Assembly: GCF_013177315.1 (NCBI RefSeq) | Contig: NZ_CP053661.1 | Location: 4,402,001 to 4,466,000, forward strand | Length of the DNA: 64,000 nucleotides | Direction of reading: 5' to 3' | Origin: Thermoleptolyngbya sichuanensis A183 | GTDB lineage: Bacteria > Cyanobacteriota > Cyanobacteriia > Elainellales > Elainellaceae | Part shown: piece after piece, positions 12,022-40,782 of the stretch | How the letters are laid out: each line of letters starts with the position of its first letter | Position numbering within the stretch: the first letter of the stretch is position 1 | Notes under the pieces: generated by a model | Told to the model about the DNA's origin: nothing | Database searches by the model: none | What the model saw: the letters and a program-made list of their open reading frames with translations, nothing else | Program-made: the position numbers and the translations under genes

Positions 12022-14286
12022 CTACGCCTCGATCACCACGCGCAAATTCCCGCGTTTTTTCACGACGCAGCATCCCGTTGCATTGCCGACGCGCTCAAAC
12101 TCCAGGTCGAGTAGGGTGCTGCCCACGCGCAGGTTTTGCAGCGACAGGTGGCGGATCGAGTCGGGCAGCACCGGGTCGAGAATTCGCAGGTGGTTGGCGG
12201 GGGCATTGGGCACGGGGTTGATCATCAGTTGCATCAGATGAAACACCGTGCCCGTGGCCCAGGCCTGAGGTGAACAGGCGACGGGATATTGCACCGGGGC
12301 TGTGCCGGGGGTGCGCTCGTAGCCACAGAACAGTTCCGGCGGGCGACAGTAGGGCTGTTGCAGCGTCATGTCTAGCAGTCCTTGGGCAATTTCTAGTGCG
12401 GCATCGGTAAATCCGAGCGATCGCAGTCCCAGGGCAATCAGTCCGTTGTCGTGGGGCCAGACCGAGCCAACATGATAGCCCATTGGGTTGTAGGCGGGCG
12501 ACAGGCTGCTCAGGGTGCGGATGCCCCAGCCGTTAAACAGGTCGGGCGCTTGCAGCCGTTCCGCCACGCTACGGGCTTTTTCTAGGTCAAAGATCCCCAG
12601 CCCCAGGCAGTGACCAGGATTAGACGTAATGCTGTCCACGGGCTTGCCATCCCCATCCAGCGCCAGCGCACAAAAATCCAGGTCGTCTACCCAAAAGTCA
12701 CGGTTGAACCGGGTTTTGAGATCCTGCGCTTCGGCCTGCCAGCGATCCGCCAGGTCAAACCGTTTGTAGAGCCGAGCAATGTCGCTGAGGCGGAGCTTTG
12801 CGGCATAAACATAGGCCTGCACTTCGCACAGGGCGATCGCCCCCTGCGCCATTTGACCATGCCGATCGACGATGCAGGTGTCGGAATCTTTCCAGCCTTG
12901 GTTGGGTAGGCCTTTGCGCGATCGCCGATTGTAGCTGAGATAGCCCGTTTCGCGACAGGACTGGTCAATCCACTCCATTGCGGCCAGGGCATTAGGCCAG
13001 AGACGATCCAGCGTGTCGCGGTCGTGCGTCCAGGCATAATAGTCGGCATAGAGCAGCAGCCATAGCGGGGTTGCGTCTACTGTGCCGTAGTAGGGTGTGT
13101 GGGGAATCTCCTGGCAACGGGCCAGTTCCCCAAAGCGCAGCTCGTGGAGAATTTTGCCGGGGGCTTCGTCGCGCCAGCCATCGTCGGCTTTGCCCTGATA
13201 ATGCGCCAAGACGGTCAGGGTTTCGCGGGCGATCGCCGGGTCAAGGATCAGCGTTTGCATCGCCGCAATGATGGAATCACGCCCAAACAGCGTAGAAAAC
13301 CAGGGCACACCCGCCGACAGCGCCTTGCCCTGCTCGAAGGTCTGCCGCAGCAGGTAGATGTCTTGCTCCGCCCGTTCTAAAATCTGGTTGATGTCTTTGT
13401 TGTCGGTGCGGATGCGCGTTGTGGCGGCGTGCCATTCGGTTTCCTCCAGTTGCTCGGCGGCCTTTGCCTGCATCAGCGTCGTCGGCGGGCTGACCGTAGA
13501 CACCAAGCGCCCATTCATCCGCATTTCTAGCCGATAGCCCACTTTCACGGTCTGGTGAGAGGCTAGGTCTACATACCAGAGGGCGGTGTAGCCCTTAAGG
13601 AAACTGGGGCGCTGGTGCAAAAACTGGATGTGCGATTCCGTCAACACGCCGTCGCGCCCCTGATAGGCTAGCGTTAGTTCCGTCGGGTCAGGGACGGAGC
13701 TATGGGTAAAGCGGGGCTGGCCGTTGCTGTCGGCATCGCCAAACCCGGTCGGCGGCATCACCCGGCGCAGCAGTTGCCCGCGATCGCCCCGCTGAAAGCC
13801 GCGAATTTCAAACAAATCCAGAAAATCGGCATCAAAGCTGAGGCTCATTTCAAAGCGCACAGGCTTCGTGCTGTAGTTAGTCAGCGTCAATTCTTCAAAC
13901 AGACCGCCATTCAGCACGATTTCACGCTCAATGCCGAGAGTGTCGGCGGGCAGGTTGTCGTCGATCAGCGGGTTGGTACAGAGGGCAGAAAAGGCGAATC
14001 CCTTGGTGGCATTGCTGCTCAGCAATACGGGCGATCGCCCCTCGATTTGCAGTTCCAGACGGCTGAGAAACCGTGTATCTCGGCAAAATAGGCCCAGGCT
14101 GGCGACGGTGCTATCGTCCAGCCGTCCCGAAATGTTGCCCAGCGTATCGATAATCAGAAACAGGTCATCGTCTTTGAGTGTGAGTGTCGGCTGGGGGCGA
14201 TCGCTCGTCACACAGGCCCACTCCGCCACAGGTGCTTGATTCGCGGGCACAAAGGTACGTCCATCAAGTTCAATCAGGTCGGGCAT
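12022..14286 (-). CDS. Amylo-alpha-1,6-glucosidase / glycogen debranching-type enzyme
   Basis: 754 aa. The N-terminal beta-rich domain (about 35-290; TLKDDDLFLIIDTLGNISG, LGLFCRDTRFLSRLEL) matches the glycogen-debranching N-terminal domain. The C-terminal (alpha/alpha)6 barrel has GVPWFSTLFGRDSIIAAMQT (about 325), WKDSDTCIVDRHG, GYHVGSVWPHDNGLIALGL and the ELFCGYERTPG region. These are the signatures of bacterial amylo-alpha-1,6-glucosidases, which hydrolyse alpha-1,6 branches of glycogen or related glucans. There is no signal peptide, so it is cytoplasmic. The exact substrate (glycogen versus compatible-solute glucosides) is not fixed by sequence alone. It sits about 5 kb from the phosphorylase-like chimera, a loose glycogen link. 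The C-terminus is complete. Confidence 0.9.
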   Translation of the reverse strand: MPDLIELDGRTFVPANQAPVAEWACVTSDRPQPTLTLKDDDLFLIIDTLGNISGRLDDSTVASLGLFCRDTRFLSRLELQIEGRSPVLLSSNATKGFAFSALCTNPLIDDNLPADTLGIEREIVLNGGLFEELTLTNYSTKPVRFEMSLSFDADFLDLFEIRGFQRGDRGQLLRRVMPPTGFGDADSNGQPRFTHSSVPDPTELTLAYQGRDGVLTESHIQFLHQRPSFLKGYTALWYVDLASHQTVKVGYRLEMRMNGRLVSTVSPPTTLMQAKAAEQLEETEWHAATTRIRTDNKDINQILERAEQDIYLLRQTFEQGKALSAGVPWFSTLFGRDSIIAAMQTLILDPAIARETLTVLAHYQGKADDGWRDEAPGKILHELRFGELARCQEIPHTPYYGTVDATPLWLLLYADYYAWTHDRDTLDRLWPNALAAMEWIDQSCRETGYLSYNRRSRKGLPNQGWKDSDTCIVDRHGQMAQGAIALCEVQAYVYAAKLRLSDIARLYKRFDLADRWQAEAQDLKTRFNRDFWVDDLDFCALALDGDGKPVDSITSNPGHCLGLGIFDLEKARSVAERLQAPDLFNGWGIRTLSSLSPAYNPMGYHVGSVWPHDNGLIALGLRSLGFTDAALEIAQGLLDMTLQQPYCRPPELFCGYERTPGTAPVQYPVACSPQAWATGTVFHLMQLMINPVPNAPANHLRILDPVLPDSIRHLSLQNLRVGSTLLDLEFERVGNATGCCVVKKRGNLRVVIEA

Positions 14287-15980: not shown

Positions 15981-18368
15981 CTATTCCTTGGTCACCACCA
16001 CTTTGACAACGCCTTCGTTGTCCTCCAGGTGGGTATCCACAAAGAAGGCATCTAGCTTGGCCGGTTCCAGCACTTCCAGGTGCAGCACGTCATCGTAGCC
16101 GTTCAGCGTAGACCAAGTTGCACCGACAGGAACGCCCGTCTTCTGGTTAATCACCTTGCCGTTGTAAATCCACAGGATGACCCACGGTTCGCCGGGATGG
16201 CCGACTTCGGCTTTGTAGTCAAAGGCTCCCTCTGCGATGCGGATAGCATATTTGCCGGGGGCCAGGTCGGTCTTGACCGCGATGTCGTTCTGAATGCGGC
16301 TGATTTCAAGGTCACTCAGCAGGAAGCAGTTTGCCTTGCTGTCTACCTTCAGGTCGGTGACGGAGGTATAGGTCGGCTGGGTCAAACCGGCGATCGCCGC
16401 ACCACCTGCCGCCACGCCCCCCAGCACTGCACCCGCCGCCGGAATCCCATCGGCAAACACCGAAGGAACGCGCACATGCTCCGACCGTGCAGCAGGGAGC
16501 CAAGTGCCATCGGCAGCGGTGTAGCCCACCTCGGCCAAGTAGTCGCGATCGGGCGTGGCAATGGGCACATGATAATCCTGGTCTAGCTCCGACACGTCAT
16601 AGGTTTTGACATCGTGGGCGGATTGCTTGTCCAGGTCAATGTTGGTCACGTCATACAGCTTCAGCTTAAAGTCGCGACCCCCTTTCGCTTTCAGGTCTGC
16701 CTTTTGCTCGTCGGGCACTTCCCAATAGGCGTAGGCTGTTTTGGAATCGCGGGGGGTTAGCACGATGCGGCCGGTCTTGTCCTTGCCTGCCAGCCCCACC
16801 AGCGCTGCCCCAGCGGCCGCCGCACCTCCCAGCACAGCCACGCCGGGGACACGAGCCGCCTGGACGAACTCACGAGTTTCGGGCGTTTCTACCACTGGCG
16901 CAATATCAGCCGCTTCCACTGGACAAGCGGGGACGCGCACATGTTCAGAGCGCACTGCCGGAAGCCAAGTGCCGTCGGCAGTGGTGTAGCCCACCTCCAC
17001 CAGATAATCGCGATCGTCCACGGCGATGGGCAGGTGGCGATCCTGGTCGGTTTCTGCCACGTCAAACATCTGGACGCTGTGCGGCTCCTGACGATTCAGG
17101 TCGATGTCTGTCACGTCCAGCAGTTTCAGCTTTAGATCTCGACCACCCCGACGCTTTAGGTCAGCCTTCTGATCGTCCGTCAGTTCCCAATAGGCGTAGG
17201 CATCTCGACAATTGTAAGGCGTTAGCACCACACGGCTGCTGGGGCGTACCGGGGGCGGCAGGGGCACGGGCGGCGCGGCCACCACGGGCGCAGGCGCGGC
17301 TTTGGGACGAGTCAGCCACCACAGCAAGCCGCCCGCGGCCGCTAGCAGCGGCAACAGCCACCAGGGAAAGCCGCCCCGTGCTGGAGCAGTTTCTGCTGGA
17401 GCAGCCGCAACGGTTTCCGTGGGAGTTGGGGTCGGTGTGGGGGAGGGAGATTCAGCAACCGGGCTGGGCGAAGGCGATGCCGCAGGGCTGGCTGCTGCAA
17501 ACACTTCCTGACCCGGTGCGGTGGTGGCAAATCCAAGCAGGGCTTCGCTGCCGGGGTTCAAATCCTTGTAAACATAGGCGCGGGGCTGGGAGTAGGGATA
17601 GCGGGGGTCGTCCGGCAAGGTTTTGTGCATGGGCACGATCTTGACAGCGCTGTTGCCAATGGCCTGATCGGCGATCGTATAGCTGATGCCGTTTTCGCCC
17701 AGTTCCGCTGTTACGGCTTCGGTGGTGTCTTCTGCAACCTGCACACCGTTCGCTCCGACTGCAATCGGCCCACCTGCAAACACCTCCTTAAAAACATCGT
17801 AGCCACTTAGAGCAAGGCGGGTGTCGCTAGAGTCTGGGCGATCGACAAACTTAATTGGCAGGTTTGGGCCACCCACTTCTGACCAGTTGGTGATTTCGCC
17901 CTTAAACATCCGAGCGAATTGCTCAAAGGTGAGGTCGCCGTCAAAGGCGCTGTTGGGGCCGACAATCACGGCAATCTTTTCGCGCTCTAGCTTTTCTTCT
18001 CGGAAGCCCTTGGCCCGGTCTGCTTCGGTCAGGGGGCGACCGATGGCCGCAATGTCGATGTTGCCCGCGTCGAGTGCCTCTAGCGCTGGGATACTGCCGC
18101 TTTCGGCCAGTTCTACTCTAGACCCGCTGTATTTGCCCTCAAAGCGACCCTTAAGCCCCTCATTGGGGACGCGCATACTGCTGGAGCCATCTACCCGCAC
18201 GACGGTATCTGCGGGCAGGGAGTCGGGCAGGGTGAACTGGGGCGCTTGGGCAATGACTTGGGAAATCAGCGTGGGGCGGCGATTCAGCGATGCGGCGATC
18301 GCATCTGTAGCGGCGGCTAGCGTTAGCACCGTAGCCGATAGTCGAAGGACAGAAGAGTTTAAGCGCAT
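15981..18368 (-). CDS. PstS-like domain - TM - tandem DUF4912 protein
   Basis: 795 aa. Residues 1-25 are a signal peptide. Residues 50-285 are a PstS-type periplasmic binding domain (RVDGSSSMRVPN, SGSIPALEALDAGNIDIAAIGRPL, GEITNWSEVGG, RPDSSDTRLALSGYD). A Pro/Thr/Ser linker (292-328) and one membrane segment (333-352, FPWWLLPLLAAAGGLLWW) follow. Then come two DUF4912 domains (about 378-480 and 533-635; RxVLTPxxxxxAYAYWEx), a Gly/Ala hydrophobic stretch (508-526), and a C-terminal domain (668-795) shared with the small protein encoded at 18605-19000. Predicted topology: binding domain outside, the rest inside. PstS-like proteins bind phosphate or related anions; DUF4912 has no assigned role. 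No Pst permease genes are nearby, so this looks like a sensor or scaffold rather than a transporter part. Confidence 0.88.
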   Translation of the reverse strand: MRLNSSVLRLSATVLTLAAATDAIAASLNRRPTLISQVIAQAPQFTLPDSLPADTVVRVDGSSSMRVPNEGLKGRFEGKYSGSRVELAESGSIPALEALDAGNIDIAAIGRPLTEADRAKGFREEKLEREKIAVIVGPNSAFDGDLTFEQFARMFKGEITNWSEVGGPNLPIKFVDRPDSSDTRLALSGYDVFKEVFAGGPIAVGANGVQVAEDTTEAVTAELGENGISYTIADQAIGNSAVKIVPMHKTLPDDPRYPYSQPRAYVYKDLNPGSEALLGFATTAPGQEVFAAASPAASPSPSPVAESPSPTPTPTPTETVAAAPAETAPARGGFPWWLLPLLAAAGGLLWWLTRPKAAPAPVVAAPPVPLPPPVRPSSRVVLTPYNCRDAYAYWELTDDQKADLKRRGGRDLKLKLLDVTDIDLNRQEPHSVQMFDVAETDQDRHLPIAVDDRDYLVEVGYTTADGTWLPAVRSEHVRVPACPVEAADIAPVVETPETREFVQAARVPGVAVLGGAAAAGAALVGLAGKDKTGRIVLTPRDSKTAYAYWEVPDEQKADLKAKGGRDFKLKLYDVTNIDLDKQSAHDVKTYDVSELDQDYHVPIATPDRDYLAEVGYTAADGTWLPAARSEHVRVPSVFADGIPAAGAVLGGVAAGGAAIAGLTQPTYTSVTDLKVDSKANCFLLSDLEISRIQNDIAVKTDLAPGKYAIRIAEGAFDYKAEVGHPGEPWVILWIYNGKVINQKTGVPVGATWSTLNGYDDVLHLEVLEPAKLDAFFVDTHLEDNEGVVKVVVTKE

Positions 18369-18604: not shown

Positions 18605-19000
18605 CTAGTGCTTGGCGACGGTTAAAAAAAGTTCACCCGTGTTGTCTTCTAGATAGGTGTCAAAAAAGAAAGCAGACACTGTAGTCTGCCCTTTGACCTC
18701 CAGCGTCACTGCATCTTCGTAGCCGTTTAGCGAAACCCAGGTCGCGCCTACGGAAACCCCCGTGTCTCGATTAGTGAATGGGCCGCCATAGATCCACAGC
18801 AGCACCAGAGGCTCACCAGAGTGTCCACTCAGTCCGCGATAGCTAAAGGTTCCACTCTTGATTTTCAGCGTGTAAACACCTGGCTCTAAAACGGTGGAAA
18901 CCGCAACTTCCTTTTGCAGCTTCTCCATTTGCTCAGGCGTGAAAAAATAGCAGTTCCGCTGACTGTGAACATCCAGTTCGGCGACGACAGTACCCACCAT
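18605..19000 (-). CDS. Small protein with the same C-terminal domain as the DUF4912 protein
   Basis: 131 aa, ATG 19000 with AAGAGG upstream. The whole protein aligns with residues 668-795 of the neighbouring 795-aa protein: CYFFTPEQMEKLQ / CFLLSDLEISRIQ, GEPLVLLWIYGG / GEPWVILWIYNG, VGATWVSLNGYEDAVTLEV / VGATWSTLNGYDDVLHLEV, and FFFDTYLEDNTGE / FFVDTHLEDNEGV. It looks like a beta-rich soluble domain with no signal peptide, probably cytoplasmic. It is not recognised as a named family. It lies 236 bp upstream of the 795-aa gene on the same strand and may interact with it or compete with its C-terminal domain (inference). Confidence 0.8.
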   Translation of the reverse strand: MVGTVVAELDVHSQRNCYFFTPEQMEKLQKEVAVSTVLEPGVYTLKIKSGTFSYRGLSGHSGEPLVLLWIYGGPFTNRDTGVSVGATWVSLNGYEDAVTLEVKGQTTVSAFFFDTYLEDNTGELFLTVAKH

Positions 19001-19260: not shown

Positions 19261-22200
19261 CTAGCCGGGAAGCGACATCGAGGATTGCAGCGGGCTGGTG
19301 GCAATTTTCCAGATGGACTGGCTGTAGCCACAAATCGCGCGATCGCTCGAAAAGTAGCCCGCCCGCGCCGCCGTCAGGATGGATTTGCGTGTCCAGCCCT
19401 CGACATCGCCGTAGGCTGTTGCGACTCGCTCTTGAGCGGCTACATAGGCGGCATAATCTGCCAGCACGCCGTAGGGGTCGCCGTAGAGTAGCCGATCCAG
19501 CAGCGGGCGGAACAGGCCGCCGTCGCCATAGGAGAACGCTCCCGACGCGATCTGGTCGATGGCCTGCTTCAGTTCGGGCATCGATTCGTACAGGTGATAG
19601 CGGTTGTGGTCGCCTTCGTAGAGCGGCAGGGACTCTGCCGCCGTCCGCCCAAACAGGAAACTGTTTTCTGCGCCGACGGCATCTGCCAGTTCTAGGTTAG
19701 AGCCGTCCAGCGTGCCCAATAGCAGGCCGCCGTTGAGGGCGGCGATCAGGTTGCCCGTGGCAGAGGCTTCTGTGCCTGCCGTGGCGATGAATTCCGCCAC
19801 ATCGGCCGCCGGGAAAATCACCTGGCTATTTTTGATGGTGAAGTCTTTGATAAAGACCACTTTGAGGCGATCGCCCACGTCCCCATCTGCGTTCACCGTT
19901 TCCGCCACCGCATTGATCAGCTTGATCATCAGCTTGGCTGTGGCATAGTCTGGCGCGGCTTTGCCCGCAAACAGCACGGTACGCGGCGTGAAGGCAGCCC
20001 CCGGATTTGCCTTAATCCGGTTGTAAAGCGTCACCACATGCAGCAGGTTGAGGTGCTGGCGCTTATGCTCGTGGATTTCATTCGCTTGTAGGTCAAACAG
20101 GCTCATCGGATCCACCGAAAGTCCCCACTGCTGCTGGATGAGTTCCACAAGCAACTGCTTTGCCATCAGCTTGGCCTGTCGCCACTGCGCCCGAAACTCC
20201 GCATCTTCGGCATAGGCCTCCAGATCCTTCAGCGTTTCCAGGTGCGTCACCCAGCCGCTGCTCAGCTTTTGGGTGATCAGGTTGGATAGGGGCGGATTGC
20301 TCAGCGCCAAGAAGCGGCGCGGCGACACGCCGTTGGTCTGGTTGCTAAATTTCTGCGGCATCAGTTCAGCAAAATCAGCGAACTTTTGCTTCAGCAACTC
20401 GGTATGCTGGGCCGACACGCCGTTGACCGCGTAGCTGCTGAGCAGCGCCAGATTCACCAGACGGAAGTGCTTTTCGCCCGCTTCATCCACCAGCGACAGG
20501 CGAATCACCTTGCCCTCGTCGCCGGGATACTGCTCGCGCACTGTGCCCAAAAATCGGCTGTTGAGGTCTAGCAGAATCTCGAAGTGGCGCGGGAACAGCT
20601 TTTGCACCGTCGGCAGCGAGTAGTGGTTGGAGTCCAACGCCTCCGGCAGCAGGCTGTGGTTGGTGTAGGCAAACGTTTTGCAGGTGATGTCCCAGGCCTG
20701 ATCCCACTCCAGCCCGTGCCCGTCCATCAGCAGGCGCATCAGTTCGGGAATGGCAATGATTGGGTCAGTGTCGTTGATTTGGATCGTCACTCGTTCTGGC
20801 AGGGTGTGGATGCTGCCGCCTGCCTCTAGGTGTCGGCGAATTGCATCTTGCAGCGAGGCAGACACAAAGAAGAACTGCTGCCGCAGGCGCACTTCCCGGC
20901 CGTATTCCTCCATGTCGCTGGGATACAGCACCTTGGATAGGTTGGCATCGGTTTCTGCCTTCCACAGGCGCAGCAGGCTGGCCGCGCCAGAGCGATAGCC
21001 TGGAATCAGGGTGTCGTAGGGGATGGCGCGAATGGCTTCGTCGGGAACCCAGCGCATCCGGTAGCGGCCATCGACATCCATGTAGGCTTCGCTGCGGCCG
21101 CCAAACAGCACGTTCACCGCTGCTTCCGGGCGCTCAATTTCCCAGGGGTTGCCGTTTTTCAGCCATTCGTCCACGACTTCGACCTGCCAGCCGTCGCTGA
21201 AGTCTTGGTCGAAAATGCCGAACTCGTAGCGGATGCCGTAGCCGATTGCCGGAATGGTGGCCGTTGCCAGCGAGTCGAGGTAGCAAATCATCAGCCGACC
21301 CAGCCCGCCGCGGCCCAGACCGGGTTCTTCTTCCAGCGCGATCAGGTCCTCCAGGGTAATGCCCAGTTCGGCTAGCGAAGTCTGCGCTTCGGGCGACAGA
21401 CCCATTGCGAACAGATTATTGGCTAGGTGGGGCCCGGGCAGATATTCTGCCGAAAGCTCAATCACCAAGCGATCGCCCAGGGTGGCCCAATCCGTCTCTG
21501 GCGTTCTCAGGGCAAACAGGCGATCGCGCACCACGTAGGACAGCGCCATGTACTTGTCCCAGGGTTCTGCCGTGTCCAGCGTCTTGCCGCAACGATGCAT
21601 CAGCGCGTCCAAAAAGGCTTGCTTCAGCGTTCCATCGGTGGGTTCTACGAGCATTTCTGGAACGGGTTCCACAATGGGTTCCGCAGCGGGTTCCGTGACT
21701 GGTTCATTCGAGAGGGCGATCGCAGGCTTAATGGTTTCCGTGACGGGTTCTGCAACGGATTCCATCACGGGTTCCATAATCGGTTCCATCACGGGTTCGA
21801 TCACTGTTTCGATGACCGTTTCCGTTACTGTGTCAATTACCTCCTCGACTGTTTCCGCCACAGGTTCCGCTACCGATTCCACGATTGGCGCAACGGCTTC
21901 TTCAACCGATTCCTTCAGCGCTTCAAAGGAGTCGGCCACGGGCGCTTCGGGAACGGGCTGCTGCGTCAGCTCAATCACCTCTTCCGTGCTGATCAGTTCT
22001 ACAATTTCGGGTTCCGTCACCGCAGGCGGCTCTACGGGCGCGGGCGCGATGACCTCCGGCTCTGGCGTGACGATGGGAACGGGGGTATAGCCAGGGCGCA
22101 CAAAGGTTGGGCGCAGTTCCACGACTTTATTAAATGCGGCCCGGGCATCGTCCTCGCGACCCAGCAGCACTAGGGTTTCGCCTTTGCCAATCCAGGCTTC

Positions 22201-23736
22201 GGTGAGGTCGGGCTGGAGGGCGATCGCCCGGTCAAAGCTTTCGATGGCAGGTTCATGGCGGCCCAGCCCGGCCAGGGCCAGCCCCCGATTCAGCCAGATC
22301 AGCGCGTCGTTGGATTCTGCCTCGACGACTTCATCCAGGTAGGGCAGCGCTTCGGCATAGCGGCCACCTTCCACCAGCTTGGAGGCCTGGATAAACAGCG
22401 CAGGCACGTCCACCACGCGAGGAGCGACCACAGGCTCCGCAGGAACGACGGGTTCCATCACGGGCTGCGGCGCAACGACGGGTTCTGCGGTGACCGTTTC
22501 CGCAACCACAGGCTCCGCCATTTCCGTAACCACAGGCTCCACCTGGGTTTCTGCTTTGGGTGCAGGTGGCGGAACCATTGACGACTGCTGTACATCCTTG
22601 GCCGCCGGGCCGCGCTTGGCCAGCCAGCCACCCAGCCAGCGGGCCGCCAGCGCCAGCAGCGCCAGAGGCAGCAGCAGCCACAGCCAGCCGGGAAGTCCAC
22701 GTCGCTCTGCCACTACAGCATCATCGGCGGTCTGGGCCACGGTTTCGACCACGGGTTCCGCAACTTTCTTGACCCCGCGGCCGGTGGCAATCGCCTTGGC
22801 CTCTTCTAGCTTGGCGGCGGCGATCGCCGACTGACCCGTCTCGCCCTGAGCCAGTCCCAGAAACGAGGCGATCGCCGTGCTGCCGTCGCGATAGGCATAG
22901 CCACGGGGCACGGTGTAGGGATAAATCGTGTCTTCGGGCAGGGTTTCTTGCAGCACGCCGATTTTCACGGGGCGGGCTTTGGTCTGGTTGGTGAGCTGGC
23001 TGGCGATCGCATAGCTAATGCCATCTTTCCCCAGCAGGCGAATCACTTCGGCGGTGTCGTCTTTGTCTAGGCGCACCACGTTGTCGCCCAGCGCCACCTC
23101 GGTATTCTGCAAAATGCCGTATTTGCCCAAGGCCAGGCGGGTGTCGCTGTCCAGCGGGCGATCGATGAAGCGGATCGGCCCCGGTTCGCCGCCAACCTCT
23201 GACCAGTCGGTGATTTCGCCCCGGAAGATTTGGGCAAACTGCTCAACGGTCAGCACGCCGTCAAAGGGATTGTTTTTGCCAACGATAATGGCAATTTTTT
23301 CCAGGCTGATGGGAATTTCCTTCAGGCCCTTGAGCTTTTCGGTGCGGGTGAGGGGACGGGCGATCGCCGCTAGGTCAATGTCGCCCTCCAGCAGTTTCTC
23401 AATTGCTGCCTCGGTGCCGCTTGCGTCGATGGTGACTTCGCTGCCTGCGACTTCCTGCTCGTAATATTTCTTGAGTGCCCGGTTGATAGGCAGCATCGTG
23501 GGCGAACCGTCGATCCGCACATTCAGATCCTCTGCCAAAACGTCCGCCACCGTGTTGGGGGCCGCCGGACTCAGCGCAACTTCAGCGAACAGTGGGACAG
23601 GCTGGAACGGAGCAGTTTGGGCGATTCGCGGAGCGATCTCTGCGGAAATCGCCGCCGGGCCAAACAGCAGAACTGATGCCGCTGTGGAGCAGAGCGCAAG
23701 GCAAAACGTTGGGAAAAATCGCTGGGGTCGCATCAT
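19261..23736 (-). CDS. PstS-like - TM - TPR - glycogen phosphorylase pseudoenzyme chimera
   Basis: 1491 aa in one open frame. Signal peptide 1-32; PstS-like binding domain about 60-305 (VTIDASGTEAAIEKLLEGDI, GEITDWSEVGG, RPLDSDTRLALGKYG); membrane segment 347-372 followed by KRG; E/P/V-rich linkers 385-440 and 548-698; TPR region 445-545; near full-length glycogen phosphorylase (GT35) fold 700-1485 (GLGRGGLGRLMICYLDSLAT, YGIRYEFGIFDQ, NQTNGVSPRRFL, FAGKAAPDYATAK). Key PLP-site residues are replaced. Using rabbit muscle numbering, Lys680 is Ile (I1331 in ATGNLIAALNG), Arg649 is Thr (T1300), Lys568 is Asn (N1219) and Arg569 is Glu (E1220); Lys574 is kept. It therefore should not bind PLP or phosphorolyse glycogen. 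Predicted topology puts the phosphorylase fold in the cytoplasm. It may be a glucan-binding or regulatory module driven by a periplasmic ligand (inference). Confidence 0.9.
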   Translation of the reverse strand: MMRPQRFFPTFCLALCSTAASVLLFGPAAISAEIAPRIAQTAPFQPVPLFAEVALSPAAPNTVADVLAEDLNVRIDGSPTMLPINRALKKYYEQEVAGSEVTIDASGTEAAIEKLLEGDIDLAAIARPLTRTEKLKGLKEIPISLEKIAIIVGKNNPFDGVLTVEQFAQIFRGEITDWSEVGGEPGPIRFIDRPLDSDTRLALGKYGILQNTEVALGDNVVRLDKDDTAEVIRLLGKDGISYAIASQLTNQTKARPVKIGVLQETLPEDTIYPYTVPRGYAYRDGSTAIASFLGLAQGETGQSAIAAAKLEEAKAIATGRGVKKVAEPVVETVAQTADDAVVAERRGLPGWLWLLLPLALLALAARWLGGWLAKRGPAAKDVQQSSMVPPPAPKAETQVEPVVTEMAEPVVAETVTAEPVVAPQPVMEPVVPAEPVVAPRVVDVPALFIQASKLVEGGRYAEALPYLDEVVEAESNDALIWLNRGLALAGLGRHEPAIESFDRAIALQPDLTEAWIGKGETLVLLGREDDARAAFNKVVELRPTFVRPGYTPVPIVTPEPEVIAPAPVEPPAVTEPEIVELISTEEVIELTQQPVPEAPVADSFEALKESVEEAVAPIVESVAEPVAETVEEVIDTVTETVIETVIEPVMEPIMEPVMESVAEPVTETIKPAIALSNEPVTEPAAEPIVEPVPEMLVEPTDGTLKQAFLDALMHRCGKTLDTAEPWDKYMALSYVVRDRLFALRTPETDWATLGDRLVIELSAEYLPGPHLANNLFAMGLSPEAQTSLAELGITLEDLIALEEEPGLGRGGLGRLMICYLDSLATATIPAIGYGIRYEFGIFDQDFSDGWQVEVVDEWLKNGNPWEIERPEAAVNVLFGGRSEAYMDVDGRYRMRWVPDEAIRAIPYDTLIPGYRSGAASLLRLWKAETDANLSKVLYPSDMEEYGREVRLRQQFFFVSASLQDAIRRHLEAGGSIHTLPERVTIQINDTDPIIAIPELMRLLMDGHGLEWDQAWDITCKTFAYTNHSLLPEALDSNHYSLPTVQKLFPRHFEILLDLNSRFLGTVREQYPGDEGKVIRLSLVDEAGEKHFRLVNLALLSSYAVNGVSAQHTELLKQKFADFAELMPQKFSNQTNGVSPRRFLALSNPPLSNLITQKLSSGWVTHLETLKDLEAYAEDAEFRAQWRQAKLMAKQLLVELIQQQWGLSVDPMSLFDLQANEIHEHKRQHLNLLHVVTLYNRIKANPGAAFTPRTVLFAGKAAPDYATAKLMIKLINAVAETVNADGDVGDRLKVVFIKDFTIKNSQVIFPAADVAEFIATAGTEASATGNLIAALNGGLLLGTLDGSNLELADAVGAENSFLFGRTAAESLPLYEGDHNRYHLYESMPELKQAIDQIASGAFSYGDGGLFRPLLDRLLYGDPYGVLADYAAYVAAQERVATAYGDVEGWTRKSILTAARAGYFSSDRAICGYSQSIWKIATSPLQSSMSLPG

Positions 23737-28072: not shown

Positions 28073-28720
28073 TCAAACCTCAGCATCCAGGGTTTCTTCT
28101 TCCGCTTCCCTCCGCTTCCGCAGCGCCGCCGCCCCCATCGCCATCAGCCCCGGCAACAGCGCTGGAGTGGGAACAGCTTCTGCGGAAATAGAATATGACC
28201 GCCGCTCCCCAGGATTAGTCCAGCGCAACTGAGCAGTTAGTAAACCTTGACCTAGGATGCTCCCTTCAGCATTCCTAAAGTTACCAAACAGCTCAACATC
28301 AACTGGACGAAAGTTTCCATTCTTACTGCCGACCAACACTGTGGCACTCGAAAGGTCAAACAATAAATCTGGAGCGATGTCTAAGAAGGCATTCACAGGG
28401 ACAGAAACGCCTCCCATGAATGTCAAATCCTGGATGGTTCCGACCTTCCCTATGTAGGGCACAAAGCCCCCTGTGCCACCCGTGACTTTAATTTGTCCTG
28501 TACCAGAACTAGCTGCAAAATCCAGCTTGTCCACTACTGGGGAAAGCCCGTCGAATCCAGATCCAATAACTAGTACCCCGAAGCCGGGTTCATTGGAAAT
28601 GTCAATCGTGTCTCCAGGCCTAATAGCAGCAGCCTGTGTAGAGGGAGCAGCAGATAATGCACCCGCCGCAACGACTGCGGCGAGGGCAACTGCCTTCAAT
28701 CCAAAATTTCTTAAGTTCAT
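28073..28720 (-). CDS. PTPA-CTERM sorting domain protein
   Basis: 215 aa. The signal peptide is at 1-31 (AVALAAVVAAGALSAAPSTQA). The body (31-180) is beta-rich and Gly-rich with no catalytic motif. The C-terminus at 183-211 is the sorting signal: AVPTPALLPGLMAMGAAALR followed by KRR, i.e. the PTPA box, a membrane helix and basic residues. This variant of the PEP-CTERM system is common in Leptolyngbya-like cyanobacteria. It sends proteins across the membrane for processing by an exosortase-type enzyme and probably to the cell surface or exopolysaccharide. No exosortase is in the window. The long leader 28721-29100 contains several hairpins and may regulate it. Confidence 0.9.
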   Translation of the reverse strand: MNLRNFGLKAVALAAVVAAGALSAAPSTQAAAIRPGDTIDISNEPGFGVLVIGSGFDGLSPVVDKLDFAASSGTGQIKVTGGTGGFVPYIGKVGTIQDLTFMGGVSVPVNAFLDIAPDLLFDLSSATVLVGSKNGNFRPVDVELFGNFRNAEGSILGQGLLTAQLRWTNPGERRSYSISAEAVPTPALLPGLMAMGAAALRKRREAEEETLDAEV

Positions 28721-40714: not shown

Positions 40715-40782
40715 TCTTAGCCTAAGCTAACCCTCAGCCTCATTGACCCCTTGCCCGGTGCGCGAGGAATTTTACCAAAAAC

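Follow-up and report, generated by a model that had tools for sequence, protein, structure and literature searches.

Organization of the locus

The window, as we call the whole stretch of DNA that was analysed, comprises 64,000 nt of Thermoleptolyngbya sichuanensis A183 (contig NZ_CP053661.1, positions 4,402,001-4,466,000). It contains a single minus-strand frame of 1491 codons, the features of which are collected in Table 1; the plus strand over the same region is interrupted by many stops. An earlier note on this DNA had described one continuous fusion of a signal peptide, a PstS-like binding domain (PBP), a membrane helix, TPRs and a glycogen phosphorylase (GT35) domain, and exactly this order was recovered. 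Hydrophobic segments corresponding to the proposed signal peptide and single membrane helix were found at residues 7-25 and 347-365. Pfam placed PBP_like_2 at residues 71-282 and located TPRs between residues 451 and 542, within the span of 445-545 that had been claimed for them. The Phosphorylase model PF00343 matched residues 788-1478 with 868 bits (cut-off, 27), and the NCBIfam model TIGR02093 spanned residues 703-1478 with 915 bits (cut-off, 553). The GT35 fold, described earlier as nearly complete, is covered along its length by TIGR02093, but 23 residues directly before its VLYP motif are absent. Because the TIGR02093 cut-off is passed, automatic annotation would probably label genes of this kind as phosphorylases.

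Table 1. Features of the fusion gene and its neighbours, with positions in the window
Feature	Position	Strand	Basis
Whole fusion ORF, 1491 aa, signal peptide-PBP-TM-TPR-linkers-pseudoGT35	19261..23736	-	Frame plus Pfam/NCBIfam
Signal peptide segment, about residues 1-31	23644..23736	-	Hydropathy (segment 7-25)
PstS-like PBP domain, about residues 71-310	22807..23526	-	PF12849; best solved relative Sll0540 (9l8j)
Asp198, at the Gly site of the soluble Ser-Gly-Thr anion loop	23143..23145	-	Asp/Glu in 67/67 rows with a long inner part
Single transmembrane helix, about residues 346-366	22639..22701	-	Hydropathy (347-365); C-terminal flank richer in basic residues across the family
TPRs, residues about 445-545	22102..22404	-	Pfam/NCBIfam (within 451-542)
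E/P/V/A-rich linker	21637..22092	-	Composition
Degenerate GT35 glycogen phosphorylase domain, residues 703-1479	19300..21630	-	Pfam, NCBIfam, alignment
Point between residues 929 and 930 where 23 residues are deleted, tower-helix position	20947..20952	-	16/16 fusions versus 0/36 canonical rows
Ile1331, at the site of the PLP lysine (rabbit Lys680)	19744..19746	-	Ile/Met/Ala in 16/16 fusions, Lys in 36/36 canonical rows
CTD, small 131-aa partner protein without a Pfam family; model confident and rich in beta structure	18605..19000	-	Adjoins fusion in 11/16 loci
Sibling receptor, signal peptide-PBP-TM-DUF4912 x2-CTD, 795 aa	15981..18368	-	Frame, Pfam, CTD match
DUF4912 (Pfam domain of unknown function), FN3-like beta sandwich	16458-17240	-	Predicted, high confidence
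Enzyme of glycogen-debranching type (GDE_N_bis, GDE_C), close to the cassette	12022-14286	-	Domain match

The gene for a small protein, termed CTD here, lies directly downstream of the fusion, and the CTD domain recurs as the C-terminal end of the sibling receptor encoded close by. The debranching gene listed in Table 1, a PPC-TPR gene and a hydrolase gene were not found in the other fusion-bearing stretches, some of which are short; on this ground, interpretation of the locus as a glycogen operon was rejected. Elsewhere in the window, the minus-strand gene at 28073-28720 encodes an exported-looking protein, whose C-terminus resembles a sorting tag of the PTPA/PEP-CTERM type.

Distribution and conservation of the fusion

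The degenerate GT35 type was found in at least 16 genomes of two cyanobacterial families. Among the matches listed in a search of relatives, the same long frame occurs in a second genome of the genus (G001) at 84% identity and also in other genera of the family, and a profile of the degenerate domains searched against 388 genomes of the class returned at least four more from a second family. Sixteen GT35 domains at or near full length were examined, an edge fragment in G015 standing outside this number. The order PBP-membrane helix-GT35 was present in every fusion whose N-terminal part is covered (13 of 13), which answers the proposal in the earlier note that the domain order be sought in other genomes; the fusions of G031, G035, and G308 start at a contig end. 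Most copies are 49 to 60% identical to the GT35 domain of the window.

The possibility that an assembly error had joined two genes, or that the gene is a decaying pseudogene, can be regarded as negligible. One of the 16 copies (G246) does carry an in-frame stop. Set against this, the source genome is a single contig of 5.5 Mb, and the frame recurs in the second genome of the genus, in other genera and in another family. Comparison of the source genome with G001, the sole pair tested, gave an overall dN/dS of 0.13, with part-wise values of 0.078 (PBP domain), 0.126 (TPRs), 0.104 (GT35), and 0.49 (signal-peptide region).

For comparison, 36 rows of ordinary (canonical) cyanobacterial phosphorylases were used, which came from loci already collected rather than from a random draw and include two identical rows. 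In a quick, unrooted LG+G4 tree, one branch with an SH-aLRT value of 100 divides the 16 fusions from these 36 GlgP rows. This fits a single origin of the fusion GT35 domains: the fold of a central PLP enzyme would have been converted to a non-enzyme once and afterwards retained by at least two families.

Cofactor site and tower region of the GT35 domain

By alignment, the GT35 domain of the fusion has lost both its PLP cofactor site and its tower region. Residues are given in rabbit phosphorylase numbering, mapped onto the fusion by motif. Ile1331, Thr1300, Asn1219, and Glu1220, named in the earlier note, were all found where it had placed them. At the position of the PLP lysine, occupied by Lys in all 36 canonical rows, the fusions have Ile (11 copies), Met (4 copies), or Ala (1 copy). 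Lys568 and Arg569, both invariant in the canonical rows and presumably near the PLP phosphate, are kept in none and in two of the 16 fusions, respectively, Arg569 being lost in 14. His341 is replaced in 16/16 fusions, every time by Asp, and Asn133 is replaced in all of them as well. The earlier proposal of a transmembrane protein whose inner phosphorylase is PLP-less is thus supported, and the design is shared by a conserved family. Thr1300, at the site of Arg649, had likewise been considered a mark of inactivity; Arg is missing there in 36/36 ordinary cyanobacterial rows too, and this marker was discarded. One row without the PLP motif (L083), considered as another inactive enzyme, was also dismissed, the lysine being kept.

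The stretch of 23 residues that directly precedes the VLYP motif is present in 36/36 ordinary rows and absent from 16/16 fusions. By the rabbit numbering, it would comprise the loop ahead of the tower helix and most of the helix itself. According to PMC2837607, this helix is conserved in the interface of the GlgP dimer, and the bond to PLP is stabilised when the dimer forms; on this description, loss of the tower and loss of the cofactor site fit together. The fusion protein would be incapable of phosphorolysis, because its GT35 domain is no longer able to bind PLP in the normal way or to form the tower-helix dimer.

Two ordinary glgP genes, both with the PLP lysine, are located elsewhere in the genome, so that the fusion copy is not needed for catalysis. 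The presence of these genes is compatible with a different role, in which the fusion would regulate the two ordinary GlgP enzymes or anchor them to the membrane by forming mixed dimers, as described for Pho1a/Pho1b in plants (PMC12267944). We consider such a role improbable and weight it down because of the tower deletion: the element that PMC2837607 presents as a conserved part of the interface is missing from 16/16 fusions. It is also very improbable, judging from the residues involved, that the domain is still an enzyme that works independently of PLP. A phosphorylase of the archaeon Methanococcus maripaludis is reported to need no PLP (PMC12267944), but the changes at Lys568, Arg569, His341, Asn133, and Lys680 in the fusions are radical, and relatives keep the PLP lysine.

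Retention of the sugar side of the pocket

In its general sequence, the domain resembles cyanobacterial GlgP: it passes the PF00343 and TIGR02093 cut-offs, shares about 50 to 56% identity with the closer cyanobacterial enzymes, and keeps residues of the sugar side. Unlike GlgP, it is without the PLP lysine and Lys568, has lost Arg569 in 14/16 copies, has the tower-region deletion, and is fused to a membrane receptor. Seven residues of the sugar side (H377, N484, E672, D339, L136, H571, and Y613) are identical in 16/16 fusions and 36/36 canonical rows. S674 and G675, presumably sugar contacts, vary among the 16 fusions, and since His341 and Asn133 are replaced in all of them, the pocket is altered on its acceptor side.

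Of 375 columns conserved in the ordinary enzymes, the fusions keep 216 (58%); 7 are conserved but different, and 152 vary. The retention of the seven sugar-side residues is mild evidence, because 58% of the conserved columns are kept anyway and the residues were chosen by us. Given that they are kept in 16/16 fusions, it is plausible that the domain is a PLP-less pseudoenzyme that binds alpha-glucan.

The outer domain and its ligand

The N-terminal domain has a PBP superfamily fold by sequence (PF12849; 97.9 bits, cut-off 27), and its best solved relative is Sll0540 (9l8j; E value, 4e-45). These matches liken it to PstS and phosphate-binding proteins of the Sll0540 type. It differs from them in being anchored to the membrane, in having a Ser-Asp/Glu-Thr loop, and in scoring below the curated PstS model (TIGR02136; 94.8 bits, cut-off 206.6). 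The glycine of the Ser-Gly-Thr anion loop, a phosphate contact in Escherichia coli PstS, is kept in 3/3 soluble relatives compared from the same genome (L042 to L045, with L044 left out). It is Asp or Glu in 67/67 family rows with a long inner part, taken as one that extends over 150 residues past the match; these rows include near relatives, and the fusion has Ser-Asp-Thr. The full set consisted of 75 family rows, and the 8 that are short frame ends (4 Asp, 3 Gly, and 1 Lys) were set apart. Loop 3 reads Gly-Arg/Ala-Arg in at least 61 of the 75 rows and Ser-Arg in the three soluble relatives.

The earlier proposal of a phosphate-like ligand is weakened by the ligand loops, with the anion-loop glycine exchanged in 67/67 rows and loop 3 altered. 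Because of the exchange of this glycine, the designation "phosphate-binding" is doubtful: the domain is PstS-like, yet hardly has an ordinary phosphate site. In the fusion of G025 (L048:6905-10570), the helix, TPR, and GT35 parts remain, whereas the PBP domain is reduced to its second half and has lost the first three ligand loops. Ligand binding by the outer domain is for this reason not universal.

Phosphate sensing by way of Pho regulation was rejected on a search with one paired consensus pattern, in which up to 3 mismatches were allowed. It gave no match near the fusion gene, and the sole match in the window, at position 40716, is weak, as 16/100 shuffles have one too.

Membrane helix and topology

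A hydrophobic helix is located between the PBP and GT35 domains in 13/13 fusions with the N-terminal half covered. Its score ranged from 1.62 to 2.52 in 12 of them, 8 of which exceed a stricter value of 1.8, and the helix of G025 was read by eye. In the wider family, 66 of the 69 proteins tested have a clear helix. The 15 residues after it contain on average 2.6 Lys plus Arg compared to 1.2 in the 15 before it (n = 66), with more after than before in 45 proteins, equal numbers in 11, and fewer in 10. The lone CTD protein has no signal peptide visible by eye, and this, together with a sibling receptor that has an HHH_5 end, points to an inside C-terminus. Taking into account the basic flank, the HHH_5 and TPR modules within the family, and the CTD protein, an inside C-terminus is the better reading of the fusion.

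The CTD partner and its genomic context

The predicted model of CTD is rich in beta structure (pLDDT, 94.1). In the genome scan, the best 80 of 87 relatives represent 75 distinct loci, all of them cyanobacterial as far as we could recognise from the record names. CTD adjoins the fusion in 11/16 loci, the window counted, and was not found beside it within the stretches examined in the other five (G012, G025, G031, G264, and G308). In 7 of these 11 (the window, L046, L049, L050, L054, L096, and L097), CTD is followed by a sibling PBP receptor with a CTD end; after CTD, L014 and L053 stop at the contig end, and L051 and L052 show no sibling receptor.

Many of the 75 CTD loci contain a pair made up of CTD and then a PBP-TM-DUF4912-CTD receptor. 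A receptor with the degenerate phosphorylase is found upstream of CTD in 7/75 (L099, L102, L115, L118, L133, L150, and L158), and in L117 part of a GT35 domain, cut off at the edge, occupies this place. The upstream gene gave no GT35 match in the 31 other CTD loci examined. Outside these 31, L166 and L172 have TPR-CTD frames upstream of CTD. Two of the 31 have other long frames there. In Leptolyngbya sp. PCC 7375, the slot of the phosphorylase receptor upstream of CTD is taken by a PBP-TM-TPR-CTD receptor (L162:6452-9931; 1160-codon frame). In Iningainema tapete, a 1598-codon frame with CTD-like matches lies just upstream of the CTD gene (L119:4987-9780); its start looks similar to a von Willebrand A domain, where Pfam reports none.

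According to the matches listed for 25 genomes of the same family, 8 have a full fusion, each together with CTD, 7 have CTD alone, and 10 have no CTD match, one of the last (G015) having the fusion fragment at a contig edge. This distribution suggests that the fusion was a later addition to an older CTD/DUF4912 receptor pair.

A galactose-lectin (PA-IL/LecA-type) identity of CTD failed in the sequence tests. The CTD alignment comprised the window and 57 of the 75 loci (L117 was dropped because its matched stretch contains a stop codon, and 17 more were omitted to limit size); none of these 58 members matched PA-IL (PF07828), and no PA-IL was detected in the genome itself at an E value of 1. 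Against two single cyanobacterial PA-IL-like proteins, hhalign probabilities were 1.0 and 5.1%. The fold search leans towards such a lectin, as a lead only: the top VIA row for the CTD model is PllA-like lectin (Z score, 6.2; rmsd, 2.8; 82 residues aligned), tied with unrelated folds. Foldseek returned nothing for the model at an E value of 0.001 or better, a CTD profile search of the PDB also returned nothing, and no family stands out in the fold searches, where absence from the lists excludes nothing.

A modular PBP-TM-X family

The DUF4912 domain of the sibling receptor is confidently predicted to adopt an FN3-type beta-sandwich fold. Its model (pLDDT, 95.8), for which the alignment was built from both copies in the window and 47 of the 129 segments matched, fitted FN3 with an E value of 7e-5 in Foldseek and a Z score of 9.6 in VIA (rmsd, 3.1; 88 residues aligned).

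The fusion gene is a member of a modular PBP-TM-X family, in which the same stem carries DUF4912 pairs, a coiled coil with three HHH_5 modules, TPR with CTD, or TPR-GT35. It thereby opens a view on a wider receptor family: its own genome (G000) has five long frames of the PBP type in which a helix can be made out by eye. One of these encodes a PBP-TM-long coiled coil-three HHH_5 protein in a 1696-codon frame (L057:4722-9809; G000 C1:1456721-1461808), a receptor with a possible nucleic-acid-binding end.

This modularity bears on the main rival explanation, that the protein is a membrane scaffold whose GT35 domain would serve as a conserved protein-interaction platform within the family and have no glucan role. 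We regard this as a real but somewhat doubtful possibility. The unrelated inner parts borne by the same PBP-TM stem (FN3-like DUF4912, coiled coil plus HHH_5, and TPR plus CTD) and the changes of acceptor-side residues in 16/16 fusions are in its favor, whereas the sugar-side residues are invariant in 16/16 despite identities of mostly 49 to 60%, and a scaffold need not keep the pocket.

Proposed role of the fusion

The fusion is probably a sensor or an anchor rather than an enzyme, because its cofactor site is lost, its sugar site is seemingly kept, and its relatives are conserved in other cyanobacteria. Our working model, to which we give slightly less than even chances, is a single-pass receptor or anchor with a PLP-less, alpha-glucan-binding pseudoenzyme at its inner end. 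The PstS-derived domain would be positioned outside the cytoplasmic membrane, in the periplasm or the thylakoid lumen, with one helix spanning the membrane and TPRs and long flexible linkers carrying the GT35 domain inside. This inner domain, unable to hold PLP normally or to make the tower-helix dimer and hence to phosphorolyse glycogen, would most likely still bind alpha-glucan chains, its sugar-side pocket being kept. The fusion, the CTD protein encoded beside it, and the sibling receptor may jointly sense or tether glycogen at the membrane. A signal from outside may alter the GT35 domain inside, by which the state of glycogen at the membrane would be coupled to that of the outer domain. 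If the inner domain does bind glucan, it offers a concrete handle on the sensing or placement of glycogen at the membrane in cyanobacteria.

A further-reaching version, which we consider rather unlikely, is that of transmembrane carbon-store receptors. The PstS-derived outer sensor would have lost phosphate binding, the PLP-less phosphorylase would read glycogen inside, and the cell would compare an outside cue with its store. If this were true, such carbon-store receptors would make up a branch within a cyanobacterial superfamily of modular PBP-TM-X receptors, and the fusion would be the first pseudo-phosphorylase receptor known to us.

Sensor kinases such as BvgS exemplify single-pass receptors that have a periplasmic-binding domain on the outside. 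The fusion resembles them in consisting of an outer domain of ligand-binding type, one helix, and an inner effector part. In contrast to them, its inner part is a degenerate metabolic enzyme rather than a kinase, cyclase, or methyl-accepting domain. Among the matches listed from full-text searches of open PubMed Central papers, a scope that excludes subscription papers and preprints, neither a degenerate GT35 protein nor a membrane receptor with a GT35 end was found described, and the same holds for the PBP-TM-X family.

Reuse of a glucan enzyme as a non-enzyme has a precedent in plants, where BAM7 and BAM8 are inactive beta-amylase-like transcription factors (PMC12892837). They share with the fusion the reuse of a glucan-degrading enzyme fold without catalysis and differ from it in fold and enzyme, in being nuclear, and in having no membrane receptor part. 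In "Cyanobacteria bacterium RM1_2_2" (L116:740-4546), a second, more decayed GT35 without the PLP motif is spread over two frames and lies opposite a tandem CTD gene.
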